A stretch of 64,000 bases of DNA, from contig NC_089450.1 of the NCBI RefSeq assembly GCF_026210795.1, forward strand, positions 1,426,001 through 1,490,000. Reading direction: 5' to 3'. Below, in pieces: positions 138-63,789 of this stretch. Both the position numbers and the translations under genes were made by a program. This stretch comes from Rhizophagus irregularis (taxonomy: Eukaryota > Glomeromycota > Glomeromycetes > Glomerales > Glomeraceae). Position 1 is the first letter of the stretch. Every line of letters begins with the position of its first letter. Below the pieces are notes generated by a model. That model saw only the letters and a program-made list of their open reading frames with translations. It was not told where the DNA came from and did no database searches.

Positions 138-2265
138 ATGACTACACCTCCAGCTCCTTCTGTTATTAACCCGGATATTCCGCCGCCACCGCGTCCTACT
201 ACTTCTACTCCTTCTGGAGACCGACCTTTGTCTCCCACGACTACCGCTGGCGCGCGCCTAATAAACGTTCACGTATTGTCACTGATGATGCTATGAATGT
301 TGATATAACACCGCCCCTCTGCTCCTGCTCCCACCCTTACTTCTACTGTTCCTTCCGGTCTTCCTGTCAACAAAGTCCACGTGATTACCTCTCCTCATAT
401 TACTACCACTCCTGTTGAAACTGTTGACGCTTCTATCCATGCTCCCACTAACACCAATGGTAAAGGCAAAGCTGTTGCCTTCAACGTCCCTGAACGACGA
501 CCATCCCCCGATGGTAATGCTGCTGCTATTAAATCCGCACCCTCTCGTTATCACGCTGCGGCTTATCTACGTGACGCGCCTGACGCGTTCAAAGCTAAAT
601 TTACCACCAATCGTTCCATGTGTGACGAAGTGGATTGTTCACTCTCCCGATATTCCTCATATGGTGCTCGTGCACGCTGCGATGGATCAGGAGATAACAA
701 AAAGATCCTTGTCTTCTTTAATGATCAGCATGATTATACCGATTGTGTCAGCTCCCCACGTGTGGATCTTCTCAATTTAGCCTTTACGCATTATTCCCCT
801 GCAGATGCCAAACTCAATGACGAAGCGAAGTCTTTGTTTGTTACCGACATACCACTTTTCCTTACTGAGACTCAAGTCCGTCAGGCATTTTCCCGATATG
901 GCACTGTAATTAAGTGCAAACTTACTCCTAGAAAACATTATTATAATGGTCATATCCAGTTTTCTTCCACAGATGCAGTTACCCAATTTAATGATATTTG
1001 GGCGATCATTTGCCTTGGTAATTCTTTACGCGTCTGCCCGGCATCTTTTTCGAAATCCCAACGTGATAGCCGCAGAGAACATGTTGCTATCCTTGCCGGC
1101 ATTCCCAAGAATATTAAAGAAGCTGATCTATTAGAAATTGCCACTCAAGTTAATGCTAAGGCTCTTAACGTTCCTTTATCTATCAGCTCTTACAAGCCTA
1201 AACCCTATGTATATTTGAATTTCTCCTCGTTTGAATCTCTTGAAGCTGCCAAAGAAATGACCGTGGCTTTCCGCGGCAAAGGCTTAACATGGCACCCTCC
1301 CAATGATGCACAAACTTTATGCCATGTTTGTGGACGTCCTGGTTGTTCTCCCTCTGAATGTAATCCACGCCCTTCAGAAAAGTGGATGATCGCTTTAACA
1401 AACTTTAAACATTCGTTTGATACTGGGACCTAGACGTGGTCGTCGGGATTCGCGCCAATCGCGTGCCAATTCCAATTCCCGTTCAAGATCGCGTTCCAAC
1501 TCTAGATCCCGCAATAATAATTCCTCTTCACCCCGCTCCAACAACAATATCAATAATACTAACACTTCTCGTCCCATCACTTCACGAAGTAGTAACCGTA
1601 CCAACAATAATAACAACAATATTCCCAGGAACAATGCCAATTCTTCCGGTTCTACTCAACCTCCACACAAACCTCATCCTACTGATTCTACATCACCTAC
1701 TTCTCCACCTGATAATCCTGCTCCTACCCTTCCCCAATATGTTATTGATGAATTAAAGGCACAGATTAAAGAGATCGCTAACACCCTCCATACTCTTGAG
1801 GAAACTGTCTCTTGGATGAATGATACTATCACGGCTCATGAGTATAGGCTATCTGAGCTGGAATCAATGATGAATTATGATGCCCCTGGCGACTCTGAAT
1901 TGCATTTGCCTCAGAATGATCATGAACATTATAATCATTCCTATGACAATGGATGGGATGATGCTCCAACCCAAGACACGCATTCTGGATTCAATCTTCC
2001 TCCCCACACTTCCTCTTCTCTTATGGACGTTTCTCCTGATGCCTCCTTCTCAGCTTTGGATCCTAGCTCTGTCCTATCAAACCGACATGTCCCCTTACCT
2101 GTCTCCCGACCTATTAATATCGCCCCTGACGCTAATACTTCCCGTTTGCAATCAGAAATTTTTAATGTTACTAATACACAAAAGAATCTTTCTGCCCAAC
2201 TTGGTTCGATTATGGATAAATTGGACTCCTTCTCTCCTTCAAAACCCTCCCCTTCTAATGATTGA
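138..2265 (+). pseudogene. LINE ORF1: RRM-like plus zinc-knuckle nucleic-acid-binding protein, frameshifted
   Basis: Presumed ORF1 protein, which coats the LINE RNA. The ATG at 138 opens a Pro/Thr/Ser-rich start. The frame is lost near 260-296, since a neighbouring frame continues as NKRSRIVTDDAMNVD. The long frame from 381 carries two RRM-like folds: RNP2-like LFVTDIP with RNP1-like YYNGHIQF, then a weaker one from AILAGIPKNI to PYVYLNFSS. A short Cys cluster follows, CHVCGRPGCSPSEC. At about 1420 the frame shifts by one into an SRSRSRSNSRSR and poly-Asn stretch, then a Glu/Leu-rich segment that may form a coiled coil. It ends with TGA at 2263-2265, overlapping the ORF2 start. Function is inferred from position and domains. 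Confidence 0.8.
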
Positions 2266-5200
2266 ACACCAATTTATATCGGGTGCATCACAGGGATTTC
2301 ACCCCCCTAACAGTGCGATACCTAATAATAATAGTTTTAATAATCCTTCTTCTCTTTCTCTTTCTTCCCCTCTTATTAATTTTGGACAAATCAATGTTAA
2401 TGGTTTGTGCTTCCCTGTTCGACAATTGCATTTGCTAAATTATTTTCTTCATTCTTCCTTTGGCGTTTTATCTTTAAATGATACTCGTCTTACTTCTTCT
2501 GGTGCGAAATTTATTTATCAAAATGAACATTCCCAGCATAATTTTAAGTCCTATTGGGCTCCTTCCTCTTTTACTTCACGACCACATGATGGTGTTGGTC
2601 TTTTACTTCGCCATCCTTTACATAAACATGTTCAGAAGATTGATCCTTGGAACGGTCGTCTTTTAAAATTAGATCTTTTTTTCCATCAAACAAAAATTTC
2701 TATTATTTCTGTTTACCTTCCTCCTTATCATTCTATTCATTATAAAGAACGTGATGCTATTTTTGCCCAACTTAATTTATGGCTTGATAAAGCCCGCTCT
2801 AATAACTATCACGTAGTCATCCTTGGCGATTTTAATGCAGATGAAATTTCACATTCACATCTTCCTCAACATCATTTAAAAATTTTACGATCACTTTCTT
2901 CTCGATATTTTACGGATCATCAATCCCATATTTCTTCAATTTCAGGTCCTAGTCCCACTTTTTATCATCAGAATGGTTCTTCAAGACTTGATTATATTTG
3001 GTCATCCCCTGGCTTTCCCGCTCCTGGTCTTTTCTCTCATGTTGACACTTGTCCTAAGTTAAATGATAATCAATTTACTGATCACCGTGTACTTATAACG
3101 GCTTTTAATTTTAGTTCTTGTTTCGCTACTTTAGCCAAAGCTAGATTAAAACAAAAAAGCGAACAACGCACCATTTTTCTCTACAAAAATCTGAAAGATG
3201 ATACTTGGGACAAATTTTCTATTGAAGTGAACTCGCGTCTTGAGTTGTATTTGACCACACATCATCCTTCTATATCTTCACTTTCAGCTCTTTCCCTGGA
3301 CAAACTTTGGCACGCTCTTAAACGTTCTATTCTTGGTGGTGCCATTGATTCTCTACCATTTCAACATGTATCCAATACCCATCACCATAAATATCCTCCC
3401 CGAGCTTACAATGCTTATTGCTATTAACAAATTCTTGGATAGATTATTGTTCAAATTGACCACGTCTCGGCCTAGTCGTCCTGCCCAAATTTCACAGATG
3501 ATTAACTCTTTGTCTACACAATTAACTCTTCTCAAATCCCTTTTAAAAGATTATACTATACCTATTTATAGTACGACACCACTTCCCGCTTTTATCAAAT
3601 TTTTGCGTTCGCAAAAAGCTTTGGTTTCTGCATATCTTACCACGCAACTTCATCAACATCGTGTAGATTCCATTGATTATTATACTGCTCTTAGAGATGA
3701 ACATTTCTCTGTGTCTCCGGGCTCTTTTATTTCTTCAGCCCTATCAGTGGAACATCGCTCTATCGTTCTTGACAGAGTTTTGGTTGTAATTTTCTCTAAA
3801 CCCACTCTTCTTACTGATCCTTTGGATATCAAACAAGCGGCTATCGAACATTTCCAATCGGTTGTTACTCCTCCTTTGGTCCAGTATTCTTCTACAAATT
3901 CGTTTCCTCCACGATGGCAACGTGCGTATACTCCTCTTCCTGATATTAATTCGTCGTTATACAACTCGGTCATGTCTCCTATTCTGGCCGATGAATGGAA
4001 GAACACTCTCAATTCTATGCCTAATAATAAAGCCTCCGGTCCTTCCAAGATCTCTTATGAGATGCTCAAACATTTAACTGGAGAAGCTTTTAATTTGTCC
4101 CTTGTATTAGCGAATGCCTGTCTTACTCATGGAGATATTCCTGCCGATTGGCGTGAAGCGCTCGTTTATCCCATTCCAAAACCTCATGAATTTGACGCCC
4201 AATTGAAAAATACGCGACCTATCACTTTGTTGGAAACTGTACGAAAATGTGTGGTTAAGGTCGTTACAACTCGTCTTTCTAAAACTCTAACTGACAACCA
4301 TGTACTCCAAGGTGGTAATTTTGCTGGATTGCCAGGTGGTTCCACTGACATTCCTATTAAGATGCTGGATGCTATCATTCATCAACGACGCTTTGATAAA
4401 AGCGATGACCAAGAATTATGGATTGTTTCTCAGGACATTTCTAAGGCCTTTGACTCAATTGATTTAAACATGCTCAGATTAGCTTTAATCCGTCTACATA
4501 TACCGTCTTTATTGATTAAATTTATCATCAACCTTTTTACAAGACGTAATAACAAAATTATTACCCATCATGGTGATACTTCTGGATATAGAGTTAGAAT
4601 TGGTATTGACCAGGGTGAAATCATTTCTCCATTATTATGGGTTATTTACTTGGATCCTTTGCTTACCACACTTAATCGAAGCTTGTGATCCCTTTATTTT
4701 AAAATCTTCTGCATTATTGGATTATTCTCCAATTGATTATGAACAACACAATCTTCCTGTTTCGCATATTACCTTTATGGATGATTCTACCTTAATTGCC
4801 TCATCTAAACGAGGAATTGAAGATCGCCTTTCCATTACTGCTGAATTTTATACTTTAAATAATACTCAAGCCAATTCAGCAAAATATATCCTTCTTTCTT
4901 CTGAACAATTTTCTCAAACTATTGTGTTTGATCTTTCTCCATCCCCTCTAATTACATCTCATACCCTTACTTTAAAGGCATTAGCCTTATCTACATCTTT
5001 TCGATTTTTAGGTGTTTGGTTTAATCTTTCGGCTTCTTCTCGTTTTGTTCACAACCAAACTGTTTCCATGGTCAAAGATATGGCTGCTTTACTTAGTCCT
5101 AAAAAACTTTTGGCACAACACGTGGCCTATCTTTATAATATTGTTTTACTTCCAAGGCTAGAGTTTCGCCTACAATCCACCTTATTTGCTGAATCCACCA

Positions 5201-7731
5201 TTAATCGCATGGTTTCTCCAATGCTTTCTCTTATTCGACAGAGAGCTGGTCTTGCCTCAGTCACTCCTCTTCCTGCGCTTTTTACATTATTGCCGTTCTC
5301 TATTCAACAAGCGTTTGGTCGGTTTCTATCATCTCATGTGGCTTCATGGCAAAGAATTTTTTCTCACCCCTCATATAAGCTTTTTGCCAACTATATGATT
5401 ACCTATCTGCAAGGATTTTTGGATTGTGATGCCTGTCCCTCTACTATTAATTTAGAACCATGGTCCCATACCCTTTCCTTACGAACACATTCTTTGTTCA
5501 ATTCTTTATTGTTCTCTTCTCGATTGAATATCACGTGGTCTTTATTGTTCCGACCTCCGAGGAAAGATTTATGACCGGCGATTCAACTCCGGTCTATTTT
5601 ACCAAAAGATTTATTTACTTCCATGAAAAGTGTTCGAAAAAATTTCTGCACTCGTTTTCTTGCTCAACTGATTACACCGTGTGGCTCTCGACTTCTCTCA
5701 TAGAAAGATTTGCGCTTTCTTAAACGAGTATCGAACAAAGGATCTGTGCCTGCTTGGTTTAATTATTTGTTTAATCTTATTGTTATTCCTAATTCACCTT
5801 CCTTTTTTATTTTACAACGATTTAGAATTCCTAGTTCTCATACAGTAGCTTCTATTTCCTTTATAGATATTAGTCGAAATTATTGGTTTAACCCTCAATG
5901 GGCTGTTTCTTTTAATCGTAATACTAACTCTTTTCTTGTTGGCCGTGTGATTACTACATATCCAGCTCCACGTAACGAAGCTCTTATTTCACATTGGATT
6001 GCGTCATCTGTTGATGATTTATTATCTGATTTTACTGCATGCCAAGGATGTGCCTCTGCTCTTCCGCGATCCTCTACTTCCAAAACATTGCTTAAACGAT
6101 GTCCTTCTGAAAAGTGCTTCTCTTATGTGCCTTTATCAAATCTCATCCGTTACCCTACGAAGCCTCGTACTTATATACATGCAGACACTCGATCGGTCTC
6201 ACTTTCCGCTTCGCTAGGCTATGCCAAATCTTTATTATTATTTCATCTTTTTGCTCCAGTTCGATCACCCCTTATGAGCAATCAAGTGTCTCAGATTTCT
6301 GATATCCACCTTCCTTCTTCGGTATCTACACTTTATATTGATGGCTCCTTCCTTCCTTCTTCTAGTCATCCGATTCCTTCGATGGCTTATGCATGGACTG
6401 CTATAGATTCCGATGGATTTATTTTGGAATCCCATTATAATATCATTTCTACTATCCTTCCTTCTGCTTTACGTTCAGAAGTGTTTGCTTTATTGCATGG
6501 ATTGGACTCCCTCCCTTGGAATTCTAAGATTATTGTCGCCACTGATTGTGCTCAATTACTTTCTTTATGGTCATTATATGTGGATGCTCCTTTTATTCCC
6601 AGAATGCTTAAAGAATCCAACCACCTTTTGTGGTCCTCCATACGCACTATTATGTTGCAAAAGAATCTGGATATTACCTTGATCAAGGTTCCTGCTCATG
6701 CTGACGACCCTTTGAATAATCATGTGGATGCATTAGCCAAAGCCGCTTTCATACTGACTCACATCTTCCTTCGTCCACCATCGGTATTGATGGCCTTGCA
6801 TTTTACAATTTAATTCCTTCCTGTGGATATGAATATCCGGAAATTTCTTAGAGATATTTTTGACGCTAAAAGTCTTTTAACTCTTGCTGTATTACCAAGA
6901 TTTAATTCCTCTTCTTCAATTTCTGATATTGATTGGGCTTGTACCAAATTTTGTCTCAATAACAATAAGCAATTTGTTTCTCATCGGAATGGCCGTTCCG
7001 AGTTTTGTGGTTTTCGTATCAAATTACTTTTAGATATGCTTCCAACGCTTACAACTCTTCAGAGACGAAAGCCTCACCTTTATAATCCGAGTTGGCTTTG
7101 TCCTCAATGTAACTCTTCTCCTGAGACTTTAGACCACTTGTGGACTTGTCCTTATATCTTACCGGAATTTAGCCCTTTAAATACCTTTAAAACACTTCTA
7201 TTGGCTCTCCGGACTAATTATCTTGACAAATTCCTTTCCGCGTCATCTTTAATACCTTTGCCGGACTCTTTTGCTGCTGAATTTATGGCTCTTGATTGTT
7301 GGAATTGTGACCCTCCTTCATTTTCTTGCCTGAGACTCGCACGAGGACTTATACCGATATCCCTTACAGAGTTTCTTGGAAATTATTATTCTTCACTTAC
7401 TATATGGTCTGTCTTAGATACACCTTTGCACGACTTTCACTTTGACCTTTATGTCCAAATCTGGTTGTGCCGTTCCATTTTCTTTCATCATTGGGAATCA
7501 GCTCAAGGCATTACAAAAAAAATGAAATCGTCAGCTCTTGGGCCTCCTTCTACTCTTTGTCCTTCCTCTAACATTCCTCTTGACTCTTCGACACCTTCCT
7601 TGGCGACAGCTTCCTTGGATTCCTGGGTTTCTTGGGTTTCCTCTTCTATAATCCGGGGATCTTGGATTTCACATTTGGATTTTTGGCGCCGCTTAACAGT
7701 TCAGCCTCTACTTAGGATTTCTTTTTGGTAA
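2258..7731 (+). pseudogene. LINE ORF2: AP-endonuclease, reverse transcriptase, RNase H, zinc motif; broken
   Basis: The polyprotein that nicks target DNA and copies LINE RNA. The start MIEHQF at 2258 overlaps the ORF1 stop. The endonuclease domain (about 2370-3120) shows GDFNAD, SRLDYIW and TDHRVL. A frameshift near 3400 leads into the reverse transcriptase, with PADWREALVYPIPKP, TRPITLLETVRK, QDISKAFDSID (motif A) and GIDQGEIISP (motif B). Another shift near 4680 precedes FMDD, the catalytic box (usually FADD). After stops at 5572 and 5701 comes RNase H (about 6330-6760), with LYIDGS, RSEVFAL, ATDCAQ and VDALAKAA. After a stop at 6811 the C-terminus has a CxxC...HxxxxC zinc motif, CPQCNSSPETLDHLWTC. 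All domains are recognisable and the protein is dead as read. Confidence 0.9.
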
Positions 7732-14429: not shown

Positions 14430-15365
14430 ATGTCGGAATCAAAATCAGGCGACCAAAATCAATCACAAAAAACATCGAATAACTCCATTAATAATAATAA
14501 TAATCGTGATAATAGTGATAATAATAGTAATAGTAAAACAAGTAATAATAAACCAATCGAGCAGGAACTCGTATTTATTCTTGAGAATGGAACTGAGCCA
14601 ACCCCAGTAAGAGCAATTAAAAGGCCTGAACCTCAGCTTCATTCTCCTGTCCATGTACCATTTCCACCAGCTATAAATGCGGCCGATCTAATTAGAACAA
14701 ATAAAAGTGGTGCACTGCTAGCCAGATGTACGAATAAGTTTCTAATTTATCGTAATGAATTTGCCAGAGAAGTTCGTGCACAAGGATATAATCTTTCTAT
14801 GAGTGAAGTTTCATGTTTAGCGGCTCAAGCATGGAAACAAGAACCTAATTATGTTATTAGGAAATACGCTGATATAGCTCATGAGGTTAAATGGTTACAT
14901 AAACAATTGTCAAGGTCGAATTCACGAAACAGAAGGAGGAATTCTTCAAATCATCTCACTTCTCCTGTTGAGGATGATGAACAGACAATTTACACAACTA
15001 GACAAAAAAGAGCTAATTTATTAACTCAACAATTTCCTTCTGAAATGTATCATTATAATAATTTACACTATCAACAGAATATTATGTCTTCTCCATTAAC
15101 TCCATTAACTCCATTAACACCTACAATGTATTCTCCTACTTTTATGTATCATCCTAGAATCTCCGAGGTTATTACATCGGATATTCCTTTAAATGCAACT
15201 ACAATGTTTACCACTTCATTGAAGGAAGAAAGATTTTTAAATAATTCTGCTAATTTGGAAATGATTTCTTCTTACGAAATTCCTGCTAATTATTGTGATG
15301 AATCATTTTCAATGCCTTCTAGATGGGTATATAGTAATCAACAACCATATTTGCATAGCTCTTAA
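14430..15365 (+). CDS. MATA-HMG-type HMG-box transcription factor, 311 aa
   Basis: A DNA-binding regulator of the MATA-HMG class, the type found at fungal mating loci and greatly expanded in Rhizophagus. After an Asn/Ser-rich start, the HMG box spans roughly residues 85-155. It includes RCTNKFLIYRNEF, then NLSMSEVSCLAAQAWKQEP and YVIRKYADIAHEVKWLHKQL, with the family's conserved Trp and basic-helix pattern. A basic patch follows (SRSNSRNRRRNSS), plausibly a nuclear localisation signal. The C-terminal half is Ser/Pro/Tyr-rich with a short LTP repeat, compatible with a transactivation region. The gene is intronless. The start is the first ATG after a CT-rich tract. An A-run directly follows the stop. 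It has no gene neighbour within several kb, so its target genes and any mating role are unknown. Confidence 0.88.
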   Translation: MSESKSGDQNQSQKTSNNSINNNNNRDNSDNNSNSKTSNNKPIEQELVFILENGTEPTPVRAIKRPEPQLHSPVHVPFPPAINAADLIRTNKSGALLARCTNKFLIYRNEFAREVRAQGYNLSMSEVSCLAAQAWKQEPNYVIRKYADIAHEVKWLHKQLSRSNSRNRRRNSSNHLTSPVEDDEQTIYTTRQKRANLLTQQFPSEMYHYNNLHYQQNIMSSPLTPLTPLTPTMYSPTFMYHPRISEVITSDIPLNATTMFTTSLKEERFLNNSANLEMISSYEIPANYCDESFSMPSRWVYSNQQPYLHSS

Positions 15366-53831: not shown

Positions 53832-56789
53832 TTAGGGGAGTTACGTACACATATCACGTAATTATCGGAGGAGGGGGTATCCCGAATATCTAACCTATCA
53901 CGTGATACTTTATGGCCTTTGGCCAAAATTAGTTTCGTGATTGTAATTTTAACTGGAATTAACGGAAATCACTTGTATCACAAAATACATTTTTTATTTC
54001 TGTAGTGTAACATGCCGTAATAAAATTTTATTAAAAAAAACATTTTTTACCACTTTTTTAAGACATAATTTTCTAAAGTAAAGCCACTTCGCACTTCGTA
54101 TAAAACCACCTCCTTACTCACCTTCCGATTGCACCTTTCGGTCATTTATAATTAAAACTTGTACGTCCCATGCAGGCACCGAAAAATTGTCAACAGAATT
54201 TGTAAATACTTTTTTCTGTTTGGCTGGTCATCCTCGTCGCTTTAGATGCTGGTTTTTCTTATGTTGAGCAACAATGGAAAGTATTGGAAAGTACACATTA
54301 CATTCAGAACAGCAAAGACAACTATAAGTGCTTGAGCTAATAGAAGGACAATGGGCATCATATCCGGGTATTTTAAGCTTGTCACAATACTCTAGTATAT
54401 GGAGTGGATTTAAGAAATGCCCATCTTTTCCTTTCGTTACTGGTGGGAGAAATCCATTATTTTCAGTAAGAAGAATAGCTGCTTCCTCATGACGGTTAGG
54501 TAAACAACAAGAGCGATCTTCGCATTTCTTGATATCAAGTGAGTATGTACACATTTTGGTGTGATTTTCTAACTACCGCCAGGGTACGTTTGATTCATTA
54601 TTACTTTCTTTTTCAGATCCAGGAAATATAACATCATTGAATGGAGTGTTTTTGTGATTAATATATTGCGTGGTGACTAGTTTCCCGAAGATAGGATCAC
54701 GTTCCCAAAGAGTACACAAAACCTCACCAGCATAACGAAAATTTTTTATTGTAAGCTCCGAATCAACAACTTGGCCTTGAGAATTGAGGTGAGAACTGAA
54801 TTTGTTAATAGGTAATGTTATACTGGCCAATTTTTGAGAAAGTGTTGACATACTACGCTCAACAGGATTATAAGCCGATTGACCTGGTGCATGAGTCTGA
54901 ATAGAAAGATAATCAAGGTCAAAGGTGTGGAACATTTTACAATATTGGTAAATATTTTTCATATAGCGGGGATTTTCATCTGGACCTCCATCAACTAAAA
55001 AAATCCAAATAGGTTTTATTTTGCCGTCAACTTTTAATATCTCATCAAAATGGCTGTTTTGAGTTAACGAATTAAGATCATTCATATGAGTGGCTGCACT
55101 TGTACCAACTTGGTATTGTGGATATACGAAAATTGAAAGTTGGCCATTACAAAAAGTATCATTTGTGTCATGTGGATTAATGAGTAAATATACTGATGGA
55201 ATAAGCTTTTGCTGCATTCCAACCGGAAAATCATGATCAGGTAGTGTAACTGGTTCTTGAAAGCTTTGTATAGTTTTGAACGTTCTCCCAACTGCAGGGA
55301 TACCAAGAGGAACTTTAACTTTGTCATCCTGAGAAATGATAACAGAATGAGTTAGAAATAAGGCTGCAAATTTTTTTGCACTTTTTACAGAAGCAAGACA
55401 ATAGTGCTCATCAAGATGTTAATTTTTTTCATCTCTAGAAACGGAGGCAACTGCAATATTAGCTGGGTGGTGATGAGTCTTTGCAGCTATAGAATTTGAT
55501 CGAGATGATAGCAGATAATTGCTAAAAGTAGTACGAGAAAGGTATTCGTTATACTTTGATTTGAGTTCTTCTTGGAGGTGACGGATTGTTCTAACTTTAA
55601 TAACCTCCTTTCTTCTTTTTTTATCTGCAACTCCGAACTCAATACATTCATGTAAATGTTCATGTAAATCAGGATATTGAGTCAAAAGTGGTGGACAACC
55701 AGGTGAACTATACTGTATTACTTCTTGACATTCTTGCAAAAGCTTTGCTTTTTTTTCTCTATTCTTACGTTGATAACCTGCTTGATGCTTTAATTTCTTA
55801 ACCTTATTATTCTCACTGCACAAAATTTCTTTAAGATTTGTCATACGCTCCATTAAATTACACCGAATTTCATAATCACTGGTGGAATTGTAAATTTGTT
55901 GAAGCTCAGCAAGTTTCATATTGGTTGCATTAATAATTTCTGCAGCTTTCTTCTGCGCAACAGCATTGGGAGGTGGATTAACATCAGCTATGATAGTTTC
56001 TTCTATTGGCTTTTGAGAGACTTGGGACTTGGTGGATTTTGAGCTTTGAGATGAATCTGGTCGCGAATGAAAAGTTTGCAAAAAACCTTGAATTGGAACT
56101 GGAGTTGTTAGATATTCCTGGATTTTATTTTCGATTTCTTCTTGAGATTTATGCCGAATTTCTTTCCATGCATTAGTACATTCTGTACATAAACTAAGTT
56201 TTGGGTATACAGGATTTTTTGCATTCACCATAAAATAATATCCAAAAGCATTGCAGAATTTCTGGTGTTGATTTATGGGAGTTTTATAAATGTAAAACTT
56301 GTTATATTTCGGTGTAGTTAGGAAAGTCTGCATGTTAAAAAGATCAGATAAAGAAATTAAAGGGGAGATTTAAAACGCGATCAGATCATTTTTACGTGTA
56401 TTAAATATTGAGTCACGTTAAAAAATCGCAGAATCACATGTGTACAGTTGCAAAAAACAATGTAATTTTTTAATTTGATCAGATTTATTAATAAAAATGT
56501 AAAAAATTCTTTTGTTTGACTATTATATTCATTATAGCGGTAAAACAGTCAAGAGAGACTCATAATTTAAAAGGCATATATTAAATAGTAAAAAAAAAAG
56601 AGAATAAAGAAATATTGTCAAAATTAGATCGATGAGAAAATTTTGAGTTTTATATAAAATATGATGACACTTGTGTGACAGTTACTATAATTATGTTGAT
56701 TACAATATGATCACGTGATAGTATAATCTCACTAGGGGGGGGTCAGTTATATAGCAATCTATAATTACGTGATATGTGTAAGTCCCCTA
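53832..56789 (-). mobile_element. TIR DNA transposon, about 2.96 kb, with nearly intact transposase gene
   Basis: The left end is TTAGGGGAGTTACGTACACA. The right end, as complement, is TTAGGGGACTTACACATATC. Inverted repeats continue through ATATCACGTAATTAT. A second inverted pair with CACGTGATA lies inside both ends. One transposase frame on the minus strand fills most of it, with only two premature stops. It is compact and intronless. The target duplication was not resolved. Confidence 0.85.
54228..56333 (-). pseudogene. Transposase, single 701-codon frame with two nonsense codons, C-terminal C2H2 finger
   Basis: Starts MQTFLTTPKYNKFYIY. The N-terminal third has a Cys pair (LCTECTNAW) and a coiled-coil-like, Lys/Glu-rich helical region (NLKEILCSENNKVKKLKHQA). 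The catalytic part follows, with LDEHYCLASVKSAKKF, SQDDKVKVPLGIPAVG, FLVDGGPDENPRYMKN and APGQSAYNPVERSMSTLS. DG-PDEN and NPVER most likely hold the later DDE acids, and SQDDKVK the first Asp. The end carries a C2H2 finger, CSECNVYFPILSIVAQHKKN then QH. In-frame stops are TAA at 55419-55421 and TAG at 54573-54575, with no frameshift. Family name unknown to me. This degree of preservation suggests recent activity. Confidence 0.8.
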
Positions 56790-58735: not shown

Positions 58736-59813
58736 ATATTTACAAAAGTATTGTATTAGTATTGTATTAGTATTGCAATTTACATAAAATAATAATTTTT
58801 TTTATTATTCTTTTTATCATGTTGTTTTTATATTATTTATGCATTTACTTTAATACCATTTTTTAAATTATCTTTATTTTTATTGTTTTTTTATTATTAT
58901 TATATCATATTATTATATAATCATATTGTAAAAATATTTTAAAAAATTAGAGGTTTTAGTAAAGTAAGATAAGGGCTTTGTGTCTAAAAAATTACTATGT
59001 AAAAAGTAAATGTATTTTAACATTTCTTTATAATAAAAATTAGTTAAATTTTATCATTTTTTACAGAAATAATTTATCTGATTACAAACAGATAATACAA
59101 GTAATAGTATTTTTGATAATAAAATCCTATTATAAGTGAAATGTTATTATGTATAAAATAGATTAGGGAAGGAATGTAATTACTTTTTTGATAAAAAAAT
59201 TGGCTACTCTTTTTTTTAGTAAAACCTCATTATTTTATCTAATTTATCTATCATTTCCAATATAAAAAATTAATATAAATTAATGAATGTACAAATAGTA
59301 ATAATAATGTCATAGATATTAATATTTATTAATGTTATCATTTTGTAAAATTTCTGATTACATTTGTACTATATTTGGAATAATAAAATGAATCTTATTA
59401 AAGTTATCCACTATAGTATTGCTATCTGAAACTCAAAAAACTAAAACTTAAAAACTTTATTTTTAATGAAAAAATTGGTAAATCTGAAACTTTTCTAAAT
59501 TATAATTAGTTTTAAAAAAGTATAAAAACAGTTTAGACAATTAATTTATTTATAAAAAATAATTTTGAATTGAATTTTGATTAAACTAAAATTTTGAAAA
59601 AATAGTTTTGACAAGCATCTTTAATCCACCAGAAGAAATACAATTACAAATAATGCAACTGTATAATATTTTTTTATTAAACTATCATAATATCAAAATA
59701 ATCAAGTACCAAGAGTAAATATTTTTACTTGCATATTTGCAAACTTCTGATAGTTGGATTATTTCATATTTTATAAAGTCATATATTGTTATTAAGTAGT
59801 TGATTACAGTCTA
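58736..59813. other. AT-rich intergenic DNA, no gene seen
   Basis: Extremely AT-rich. No feature is supported. Confidence 0.5.
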
Positions 59814-60125
59814 CATATGGGCCGATTTGTCTCGTATCACTAATTAATTTTTAGTGATAAATATGAATTTTGATCGATATGCTGATCAAAATAACTTGTA
59901 AACAGTGATAATATCAGATAACGCACAATGATGCACATGACGATTTTATATTCAAACCAATTGTTGGTGGCTTCGAACTTGTTTCTCGCAACTTTGATTC
60001 CTGTTGGTAATTGGTTTGTAATTGGTTTTATTTGGAAGGAATTGGTTTTTTTTGGAAAACCGTAAGTAGTATATTAAAAATTTATTATAGTCAATTAGCG
60101 AAACTCTTTGCTTTAAAATAATAAA

Positions 60126-62673
60126 ATGGCAGAAACAATCGTTCTCATTACCGAAAGTAATATTTTTTTTTTATTTTTTTTAATATAGGGAAAAGTCTAA
60201 CAACATCCTTTATCAATAGCTACGTTTTCTAGTCATGTCTTTACACATGATTATCCAAAAAGTTCGAAAATTGAAGCACATTATCAATCAAATGGACGAT
60301 TATTTATTTCATATTACAATATTATTTCTCTGGGAACCTATCCTTCTATACCAAAGTTGACACAAAAATCTAAAAACAACGCAATTCAATATCCAATACC
60401 TGATAATTATATAGTTGAAACAGAGATGTTTGAAAGGAGTCTTAATTGCAAGACTAAATATATTTCAAATTCAAAGGTAAACTATACAATTAATTGGAAG
60501 ATTGGTCGGGCAGAGTGGAGTGTTAGTAGTACAAAATCTTCAACAGCAGTTGTCAATACATTTTTGCAAGTATGTAATTCTTTCATATTTATATTAAAAA
60601 ATTTTAATAATTATAGATAATTAATTTAATATTTTATTGATTAGAAAATTAACCAAAACCCATCAACTAAACTTTCTGGACCTCGGTTGTTTGGATTTGA
60701 TATTGAGCCATTATACTATGCTCGTTCACAAATTGGTTTTCAACCTATTACTGCTGGTACAAATGATAAGCGAAAAAGACCCCTTGAGGAAATCACTTCT
60801 CAATCACAGCAAAATAAAAGATTTAAGAGTTTTGGAGAAGATGTGCATAAAGCAGTTGATGAATTGATCATTAAGCACAAGTTGACAAATGTATCTGGAG
60901 AATCAATTATACATTTACAGCAAATTGGATTTGATTACAAAGAGAATCAAGTTTGTATTAAATTCAAAGATCCAGATCCTATGGCAATTCAAACAAGACT
61001 TGATGCCATTGTACGTGTGTGTGATGAAGCACTTTTAAGCCGTGATGGATATCGACATTTAGCAGCAACTGTACTATCACTTTTCCGTGAATATTTAGTT
61101 GCTGATCGCCGAAATAAGATAAATTAACTAATAAATACTCAGATAAATGTGAAAATTTTTAATATAGATCAAGATATTAATCAAATTAATGATCATAATT
61201 CTGATGTACATACTGGTGACATTTTAGTAAATAATTATGAAGTGGGAAATGAAGCTTATCGTTCTCTTTCAATTTTACTTAAAGTATTAATACCTGTTTG
61301 GAAAGGAGGCAAAAATCCTGTAATAATTTCAGAAGATACTCTTTATATAAAACTTGGTGGTGATGGTCGTAATGTGGGGAGGAAACAAAACCATGTAATG
61401 ATTACCTTTTGTTTACTAAATGAAAAAGATAATGTGCTTAAACCAGACCATCAATATAGGTATATTTTTTACATGTATTATAAATTAACTTGTAATTTTA
61501 ATGAAAACTGAAATAAATAAAATTCAATTGCTATTTCAGTATATGTCTTTATATAGGTAAAGAAAAATATGAAACATTGGATAAGGTTGGCAAAATATTT
61601 GCTGTACAGTTAGCTGATTTAAAAGAAAGTGGAATAATTGATGGTGATGGCGTTCATTGGCCAATTAAATTTTATTTTTCTGGTGATTGGAAGTTTACAT
61701 ATATTATTATGGGCTTAAATGCGCCAAATTCAGAGTATTTTTGCCTATTCTGTGAATGTGATGCTAAATCTCGCCATAATATGGATCTTTCTTGACCATC
61801 TACTGGAAATATTAGGAGTAAAATAATTAAAATGTTTGTGAATTTTTTGTAAAACAATAACATATAAGTAATTATTAATTTATTATAATTTACATTAACT
61901 AGGAAAAAAAAGGGTATCTTTATTTCCTGTAGTTGATTTACATAGTTACATTCCTGATGAACTTCATATCTTATTACGGATATCTGATGTATTGATGGAA
62001 TGTTTATTTAGAGATTTATTTAAGAAAAATGATTTTGAACGAAATTTTAAAGAGAAAATTGAAAAAAAAATGAATGATCTTAATATTCATTTTGAGTTTT
62101 ATCATGGTGGTTCTGCTCGAGATAATTGGAACTGGACATCACTTATGGGACCTGATAAAAAAAAAATGCTACAACATTTTTCTGTAAGTGAATTTATACC
62201 TGAAATACGTGGAGTGGATATTGAAATTTTATGGCGTAAATTTTATCAATTGTATGAAGTTTTAAAAAAACCATCTCATACTGAAGAAGAAATTTCAAAA
62301 TTTGAGGAAGATGTTAAAAATTGGGTAAGAACTTTCTGCCGGCCTACTATAGGCCAAATGAATTCTGCAACATCAATTCCAGGACTTTATAGAAAAGAAG
62401 ATGTTACACCTTACATGCACATGCTTACAATGCATGTTCCTTATTGTATGCATCAATTAAAAGAAAAGGGACTTTCACTTAGATTATTTTCAACAAGTAG
62501 TATTGAAAAAAAAAATCATAATCAGGTATTTGATTTTATTAATTTTATAATTTTATATGAATATTATTCATTCTCACTAATTTTATTATTCATTTATTAC
62601 TTATTAGGTTAAATTGTTTTTTAGAGGAACTACTATGGGAGGAGGTAAAAAAAAACTTCCTGTTTGTTTATGA
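60126..62673 (+). pseudogene. Putative DDE transposase, six exons, 720 codons, two nonsense codons
   Basis: Hand-built exons: 60126-60156, 60220-60569, 60645-61459, 61540-61817, 61903-62525, 62608-62673, all GT-AG, in frame and summing to 721 codons with the stop. In-frame stops are TAA 61125-61127 and TGA 61793-61795. Domains: an N-terminal part of unknown fold, then the nuclear-looking KRKRPLEE. The presumed catalytic part follows: YIKLGGDGRNVGRKQNH (first Asp), DWKFTYIIMGLNAPNSEYFC then LFCEC (CxxC), DLHSYIPDELHILLRISDVL, and TPYMHMLTMHVPYCMHQLK then SIEKKNHNQVKLFFRGTTMG (Glu). This order matches that of RAG1 and Transib (CDG; GLEAS..Y.C..C; HVPE; NES...FRR). The resemblance is by eye. I recall similar unnamed proteins in cnidarians and Rhizophagus. 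Confidence 0.72.
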
Positions 62674-62792
62674 TATATTAGTATTTGAAAATCGCCAAAT
62701 TTTTTATTTGATTAATAATATTCCCAATGAAATAACATATAAAAACATTACTATATAGTAATAAAAGCATTTTATTTATTTTATTTAAAAAT

Positions 62793-63624
62793 TTATATAA
62801 TTGGAGGGCGAGGTAAAATATATCTATAGCGTGATTTAGTAATAGTTGTTGGCTCAATATTTATTGATGAAATTGTATTATTTGATTGAGAAAAATTAGG
62901 ATGAGAAGAAGACACATTACAGGAATTATTATATATCGTATGCAAATTATGTTTACTATCAAAGGTTGGTTCATAAAGAGGTGGCGCAATATTTTCTTGA
63001 TCTTGGCTGTAAATAATAAAATAAATTTAATATTTGAACAAAAACTTTTAAAATTATACAGTATACTTACTAATTTACAAACTCGCCAGAATTGGTAATA
63101 AAATTAATTAACATAGCTCCAGTTAAAAAAAGTTCATTGTTTTCCTTCCACTCCTTCTGTTTCCAACTAAATGTTGCTTTGTATTGACTATCATTATCCT
63201 CAAATAATATATACCCTCGGGTTGAAGTATTTATATTTTCACGAAATATAATTTCATTATATTTGAATATACTTTTAAGTTTTTCTGCACCCATACTACC
63301 CTCAAAAATGCATTGATATTTTCGTTGACTTGATATATACTTGAAATTATCTTCATTTTCAAATAAAAACAAAAATACACTTTCTGGAAACGCATCTATT
63401 GTTATGTGTTTCTTTCCAATTGCATGTCTATTGAACCCAAGGCTATTTTTCAGGCGAATTATTATTGTATCTCGATAAAATGACAATGTTTCATCAGAAG
63501 GTTGACAAAGCATGTGACGGTGTGGAATCAGTTTATTGTTTTTATGTTTGCTTCGTTCATGATTTTAGAGTTTTTTTCTTGTATCATAAATTTTAGAACA
63601 TAAAAGACAAGAAAAAGTACACAT
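62793..63624 (-). pseudogene. Accessory transposon protein with N-terminal C2H2 finger, 255 codons, one nonsense codon
   Basis: Exons (complement): 63071-63624 and 62793-63006, GT-AG and in frame. The start MCTFSCLLCSKIYD opens a C2H2 finger (CxxC-x12-HxxxxH, ending NHERSKHKNN). A TAA at about 63564-63566 breaks the finger just before its first His, and a downstream ATG at 63513 leaves 147 open codons in exon one. The rest is unrecognised. It has a beta-rich-looking part (KKHITIDAFPESVFLFLFEN and STRGYILFEDNDSQYK) with WKQKEWKENNELFLTG, then a polar tail ending RYILPRPPII. It converges on the transposase gene. A DNA-binding helper or regulator of transposition is the natural guess, with no homology to support it. 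Confidence 0.6.
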
Positions 63625-63789
63625 GGCAGTTATTTTTTGCTGGTATCAGAGCCGCGTATTGTTAAACAGATCAAATTAAATTGATTGGTTATAAATGTGA
63701 TGTGTGATTAAACAAATTAGTAATGATCGACCATTGATCATTTTTGCAGGTGATATAATCAAAGTGAGCCAAATCAGCCCATATGACCT

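Follow-up and report, generated by a model that had tools for sequence, protein, structure and literature searches.

Transib transposons generate 5-bp target duplications and have CAC-type ends, the ends recognised by RAG begin with a heptamer, and in RAG1 the second histidine of the zinc region and the catalytic glutamate are separated by a spacing of 20. RAG1 and RAG2 have been derived from one transposon (Kapitonov and Koonin 2015, PMC4411706). In animal RAGL elements the gene order is convergent (PMC7204232), and 5-bp duplications of RAGL are given, together with 20 fungal Transib-like proteins, in the account of Tao et al. 2022 (PMC9435367). The broader CMCT clade (EnSpm-Mirage-Chapaev-Transib and allies, with RAG1), as defined in the text of Kojima 2025 (PMC12730594), is marked by three acidic residues (D, D, E), with the motifs C(2)C and H(3-4)H lying between the last two, by mostly CA..TG termini and target duplications of 2-5 bp; the motif set is given there as common to EnSpm, Chapaev, Plavaka and ESTA, and ESTA elements have a TA target duplication and, in those described in that text, TET/JBP cargo. 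Transib was reported as new in Rhizophagus irregularis by Oliveira and Corradi 2024 (PMC11075540), and the elements named in that account may be the RAG1-like elements described here. Searches of the literature for RAG1 and transposase with Glomeromyc- or Rhizophagus irregularis found no paper linking them.

The window (the whole stretch of 64,000 nucleotides of R. irregularis DNA that was analysed, G+C content 28.4 %) contains at positions 59814-63785 a decayed DNA transposon copy of 3,972 bp. Its sequence indicates that it is very probably a copy of a cut-and-paste transposon from a large and diversified R. irregularis family, with a CMCT-type DDE transposase carrying a zinc-binding insertion. 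The family has the D, D, CxxC, HxxxxH, E order of RAG1 and RAGL (ProtoRAG), with a spacing of 19 from the second D to the first C and with H-x4-H, and, like animal RAGL, a pair of convergent genes, but differs from them in a 1-bp instead of a 5-bp duplication, in a second gene in which RAG2 (kelch/PHD) was not recognised, in a spacing of 22-24 and not 20 between the second H and E, and in CATATnGGC ends in place of the RAG heptamer. It has the motif set of Transib, but a 1-bp duplication, CATATnGGC ends and an extra gene. With ESTA it has in common that it is fungal, RAG1-like by profile and equipped with the CMCT motifs, whereas the C2H2 gene and the single duplicated base contrast with the TA duplication and the cargo of the described ESTA elements. 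EnSpm/CACTA and Plavaka likewise carry CxxC and H-x3-4-H after the second D and ahead of E, and PG...L..EL before the second D; their clade duplicates 2-5 bp, no member of the family alignment matched PF02992, and the EnSpm-type protein of locus L059 has H-x3-H where the R. irregularis family has H-x4-H.

The element, its transposase gene and its genomic copies

The element lies on the plus strand, its limits being set by ends common to sister copies, and is bounded by a left terminal inverted repeat at 59814-59833 (CATATGGGCCGATTTGTCTC) and a right one, on the minus strand, at 63766-63785, complementary at 18/20 positions. The genome searched comprised 146.7 Mb in 32 contigs, with the window mapping to contig C22. 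The end pattern CATATGGGCYRATTTGKCTC, allowing up to two mismatches, gave 182 + 199 = 381 matches in it against 1 + 0 for the reversed control, so the ends are not due to chance and the matching 20-bp ends of the original prediction were confirmed. The most frequent end among the 100 matches listed for this pattern was CATATGGGCTGATTTGTCTA. A DNA search found at least 69 stretches matching the element in its own genome, and a protein search found 131 matches to the transposase, many without stops. Short elements of 911-962 bp with the same ends as the full-length family made up 9/16 of one insertion set, and these (about 930 bp) presumably moved in trans. The near sister copy L013 (C21:586500-595600), with pieces 92-97 % identical to the element, is interrupted by several kb of other sequence, and its right flank carries another end of the short-element type. 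Pattern searches for relatives in viral contigs (53 matches) and in bacterial and archaeal genomes (42 matches) yielded no confirmed relative.

The transposase gene was modelled on the plus strand as six exons joined by five GT-AG introns. Exon 1 (60126-60156) is followed by exon 2 (60220-60569), which encodes the N-terminal domain, and by exon 3 (60645-61459), with an in-frame stop at 61125-61127 and the first predicted catalytic D in GGDGR (codon 61362-61364). Exon 4 (61540-61817) holds the second D (61685-61687), the cysteine codons of CxxC (61742-61744 and 61751-61753) and an in-frame stop at 61793-61795; exon 5 (61903-62525) holds HxxxxH (62418-62420 and 62433-62435) and the predicted catalytic E in EKKNH (62505-62507). 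In exon 6 (62608 to about 62760, the end being approximate) the frame is broken by a frameshift relative to sister copies, and with its two in-frame stops the window copy of the transposase is dead. The joined exons give the gene of 720 codons that had been predicted, and the motifs listed with it (GGDGR, GLNAPNSEYFC with a CxxC, HVP, and E-K-x-N-x5-FRG) are all present in the window copy. The likening of FRG to the FRR of RAG1 and Transib did not hold: of seven copies aligned only the window copy has FRG, all six sisters (L005, L008-L012) having FFGG, and 14 more distant relatives have FFRKT (6) or another F[RKQ]xT (8) at this position.

These 14 relatives and the window core form the 15-member alignment A1, the relatives being 36-39 % identical to the window core. 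They have no introns at the last three splice points of the window model, for example from exon 3 into exon 4, and this uninterrupted reading supports the joining of the exons. Many relatives have a catalytic region that is unbroken and without introns, L039 and L044 being examples of loci with intact frames; an apparent read-through intron lies near the N terminus in L042, L043 and L047, and the frames of other relatives begin late. The dN/dS of the transposase gene is 0.14-0.18 in five pairs, and these values are signs of purifying selection.

Other sequences were seen elsewhere in the window. Two frames (214 and 304 amino acids) on the minus strand at 54573-56333 resemble the proteins of another transposon, a plus-strand frame of 311 amino acids at 14430-15365 resembles by eye a protein with an HMG-box of the MATA-HMG type, and plus-strand frames at 618-7731, with endonuclease-like and then reverse-transcriptase-like pieces by eye, are presumably a decayed LINE.

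Catalytic motifs and kinship to RAG1 and EnSpm-type proteins

Motif order was read from alignment A3, containing 13 proteins, from which two near copies present in A1, L040 and L043, were left out and in which the probable read-through intron was cut from L042 and L047. The order D(G), D-x18-C-x2-C, H-x4-H, E, as in RAG1, was found in 13/13 proteins, with spacings in all 13 of 79-81 between the two aspartates, 19 from the second D to the first C, and 22-24 from the second H to E. Among the residues that never vary are the aspartates of GDGxNVG and of DWKF, both cysteines, both histidines, and the E before K-N-H. The D-x18-CxxC and HKTLAH of RAG1 are legible in the computed alignments, and the catalytic E of RAG1 follows them. 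The comparison of further copies, proposed with the original prediction as a way to locate the catalytic triad and the target duplication, gave D, D and E in 13/13 proteins and a duplication of 1 bp.

Searches with single sequences found little. The spliced window protein matched no Pfam family, and a phmmer search of the window transposase core against PDB sequences gave no match, so the link to RAG1 would have escaped single-sequence searches alone. The Pfam RAG1 model reached the open reading frame at 61517-61795 (the exon 4 frame) with E 0.009 and 1/15 members of A1 with E 0.11, both below the cut-off, and matched nothing over the genome, where 14 controls likewise gave no match. Four NCBIfam families appeared at E <= 0.1, one member each and none sensible. 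As a yardstick, phmmer with a RAG1 segment against PDB sequences reached RAG1L at 7.5e-9, and Transib was absent from its list up to E 10.

The profile search that had been suggested for the joined exons found no family with the spliced protein in Pfam; with the family profile in PDB sequences, RAG1 or RAG1L made up 16/17 matches at E <= 10 (best E 0.0015), many of the 16 being versions of the same few proteins; the remaining match was a lysozyme at E 0.44. The match to RAG1 aligns the second D and CxxC. With hhalign, A3 matched two RAG1 segments (A4) with a probability of 78.9, P 1.6e-5 and a raw score of 41.5, against 0.1 for reversed A3 and a maximum of 1.2 over 60 column shuffles. Matched to a pair of EnSpm-type proteins from this genome (A5, 2 of the 6 EnSpm-type loci fetched), A3 gave a probability of 38, P 3.3e-4 and a raw score of 42.4, and covered the same segment, while EnSpm-type proteins against RAG1 gave a probability of 0.2. 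The similar scores to both make the transposase family kin to both, and the PG...L..EL segment before the second D is common to it and the EnSpm-type proteins. The spacing of 19 from the second D to the first C was considered as a RAG1 signature and rejected, as the EnSpm-type L059 also has 19.

The second, convergent gene

A second gene, absent from the original prediction, was found by profile (A2) and alignment on the minus strand at about 63070-63645, convergent to the transposase and with one in-frame stop at 63565-63567; it encodes a C2H2 finger and a conserved C-terminal domain. The A2 profile matched the window in two pieces with E 1.1e-45 and 6.2e-5, the window sequence being itself a row of A2. 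A homologous frame lies downstream of the transposase on the opposite strand in 22/28 loci, including 14/20 that were not used for the profile (8/28 built it), and was not seen in the other six (L007, L017, L045, L050, L051 and L052). At L046 a weak extra piece of the second gene (E 0.0021) was observed on that opposite strand at the far end, upstream of the transposase.

The finger at the start of the protein matched PF00096 in 9/9 cases at E <= 1 (best 1.4e-4), and the PDB matches of the protein were zinc fingers (best 1.1e-6), those listed all falling on the C2H2 finger, as does the Pfam support on zinc fingers. The conserved domain that follows contains Y-x-C-x-F-x-G and has nothing convincing among the Pfam and PDB matches listed, and neither kelch nor PHD appeared among those listed (60 of 232 PDB matches, 25 of 27 Pfam families). 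The gene order is suggestive of RAG2, with nothing RAG2-like recognised in the listed matches. For the second gene, two pairs at moderate divergence give a dN/dS of 0.19 and 0.24, and the signal is weaker elsewhere (0.40 and 0.41 in two near-saturated pairs, 0.75 in the near-identical L009/L010); from these values the gene appears to be kept by purifying selection.

Target duplication and placement of the family

The window copy is flanked on the plus strand by an A at 59813 and an A at 63786, the left and right copies of a 1-bp duplication. The same base stands on both flanks in 7/7, 13/16 and 8/13 insertions in three sets, a total of 28/36 (P 2.8e-8 at a flank-composition chance of 0.323), the 36 insertions being not all independent in that L067 and L068 have the same right flank. 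In the first set L012, L006 and L007 had no readable end and were uncounted, and in the third 7/20 loci gave no second end. CATATG stands at both ends in 29/36 insertions, and 25 of these 29 have the identical flanking base. The duplicated base is A in 15, T in 9, C in 2 and G in 2 insertions, and two flanking bases are identical in only 4/36, which means that the duplication is not longer than one base. Outside this count, 19 further loci included four with usable ends (L041, L046, L014 and L016, the flanks of the last read by eye after shifting the alignment), each with matching bases on its two flanks, one (L048) with a weak end candidate and no identical base, and no end in the remainder.

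Empty sites at two loci fix the length at one base. L028 reads ACCAA-element-ATCAG and its empty sites L053/L054 read ACCAATCAG, and L033/L034 read GAAGAA-element-ATCAAA with empty sites L085-L087 (3 of the 40 matches listed) reading GAAGAATCAAA; both of these clean cases duplicate an A beside an A. The 8/36 insertions without an identical flanking base fall into two groups. L024, L025 (by eye), L066 and L068 fit an inverted end that is one base longer, the flanking bases being complementary and the identical base standing next to them, with altered end hexamers in L066 and L068. L029, L070, L073 and L075 fit neither rule. The empty sites of L024 (L055-L058, four of the matches) agree with a single duplicated T on condition that an extra complementary G..C pair belongs to the element, and L024 was therefore left out of the clean cases. 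L008 was dropped as an empty-site test because a tandem repeat of about 100 bp and a T run make the length ambiguous; its insertion lies inside this apparent repeat, which recurs in many places (139 matches). TA or CATATG as the target duplication was ruled out by the empty sites. A literature search, with most subscription journals outside its coverage, found no 1-bp duplication, and wording for 2, 3 or 5 bp did match.

On its sequences the family is placed in the broad EnSpm/Chapaev/Transib/RAG1 (CMCT) group and outside Transib, given the similar raw score to EnSpm-type proteins and a target duplication unlike that of Transib. The CMCT definition is matched in 13/13 proteins by the triad D, D, E, with C(2)C and H(3-4)H following the second D and preceding E, and also by termini of the 5'-CA..TG-3' type; the 1-bp duplication lies outside the published range, so it is the protein and the ends that carry the placement. 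The original prediction had offered membership of the RAG1/Transib superfamily or an independent family of the same fold. Membership holds for the wider DDE group containing RAG1 and Transib, by motif order, PDB profile and hhalign, and is not supported for Transib or RAG1 proper, in view of the 1-bp duplication and the lack of a recognised RAG2-like gene. The second alternative was the better half, as a divergent sister lineage and not as convergence, with an RNase H fold that would follow from motifs and profiles.

It is unlikely, though worth weighing, that the family has already been described under another name, as part of ESTA or of a further fungal CMCT lineage such as Plavaka or EnSpm. 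ESTA is recognised by RAG1 similarity and has C(2)C and H(3-4)H, and the clade termini are mostly CA..TG in the text of PMC12730594; the hhalign match to EnSpm-type proteins points the same way. However, ESTA, compared by its description, is defined by a TA duplication and here the single duplicated base may be A, T, C or G, and the EnSpm model PF02992 matched 0/15 members of A1 at E <= 1 against 155 stretches of the genome (counted irrespective of overlap with the transposase loci). It is improbable that the family is genuine Transib or RAG-like (RAGL), the first being a label that an R. irregularis repeat library may give it. The predominance of RAG1/RAG1L among the PDB profile matches, the H-x4-H, the convergent genes as in RAGL (PMC7204232) and the report of Transib in this species (PMC11075540) speak for it, but RAGL has 5-bp duplications (PMC9435367), the second gene gives zinc-finger matches with no kelch or PHD among those listed, and EnSpm-type proteins score about equally. 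Hardly credible is a one-base duplication that is an artefact of ends misread by one base, or of a preference for CATATG targets with a longer palindromic duplication: CATATG is palindromic and stands at both ends, but the empty sites lack it and differ by exactly one base, and divergent members have other end hexamers (L046 CATATC and CATATG; L049 CATATC and L045 CATATT, as loose one-end matches), so that the hexamer belongs to the element.

For the family as placed here in the CMCT group, the transposase would recognise the CATATnGGC ends and excise the element, with D-D-E as the site of metal-ion chemistry, the 3' ends of the element would be joined to target strands one base apart, and gap filling would then duplicate the single base. 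The zinc-finger partner may bind DNA, either at the ends of the element or at the target, in support of the transposase, which could also have moved the short elements in trans. Tentatively, the family may be an undescribed RAG1-related lineage, in which a DDE-plus-zinc site, a one-base stagger and a selectively kept convergent C2H2 partner are combined, the partner having arisen as an independent counterpart of RAG2.

More surprising are the duplication of a single base and the convergent zinc-finger gene that selection appears to have kept, both of which go beyond the original prediction. With its abundance and its many unbroken frames, the family is open to bench work and to comparison of resequenced strains on either point. 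Duplications of 2-5 bp are what has been described for transposases of the RAG1 group, and for a single base the strand-transfer complex would need another geometry. A second gene in the position of RAG2, unrelated to it in the part that can be recognised, would show that RAG1-type transposases repeatedly take up partners.
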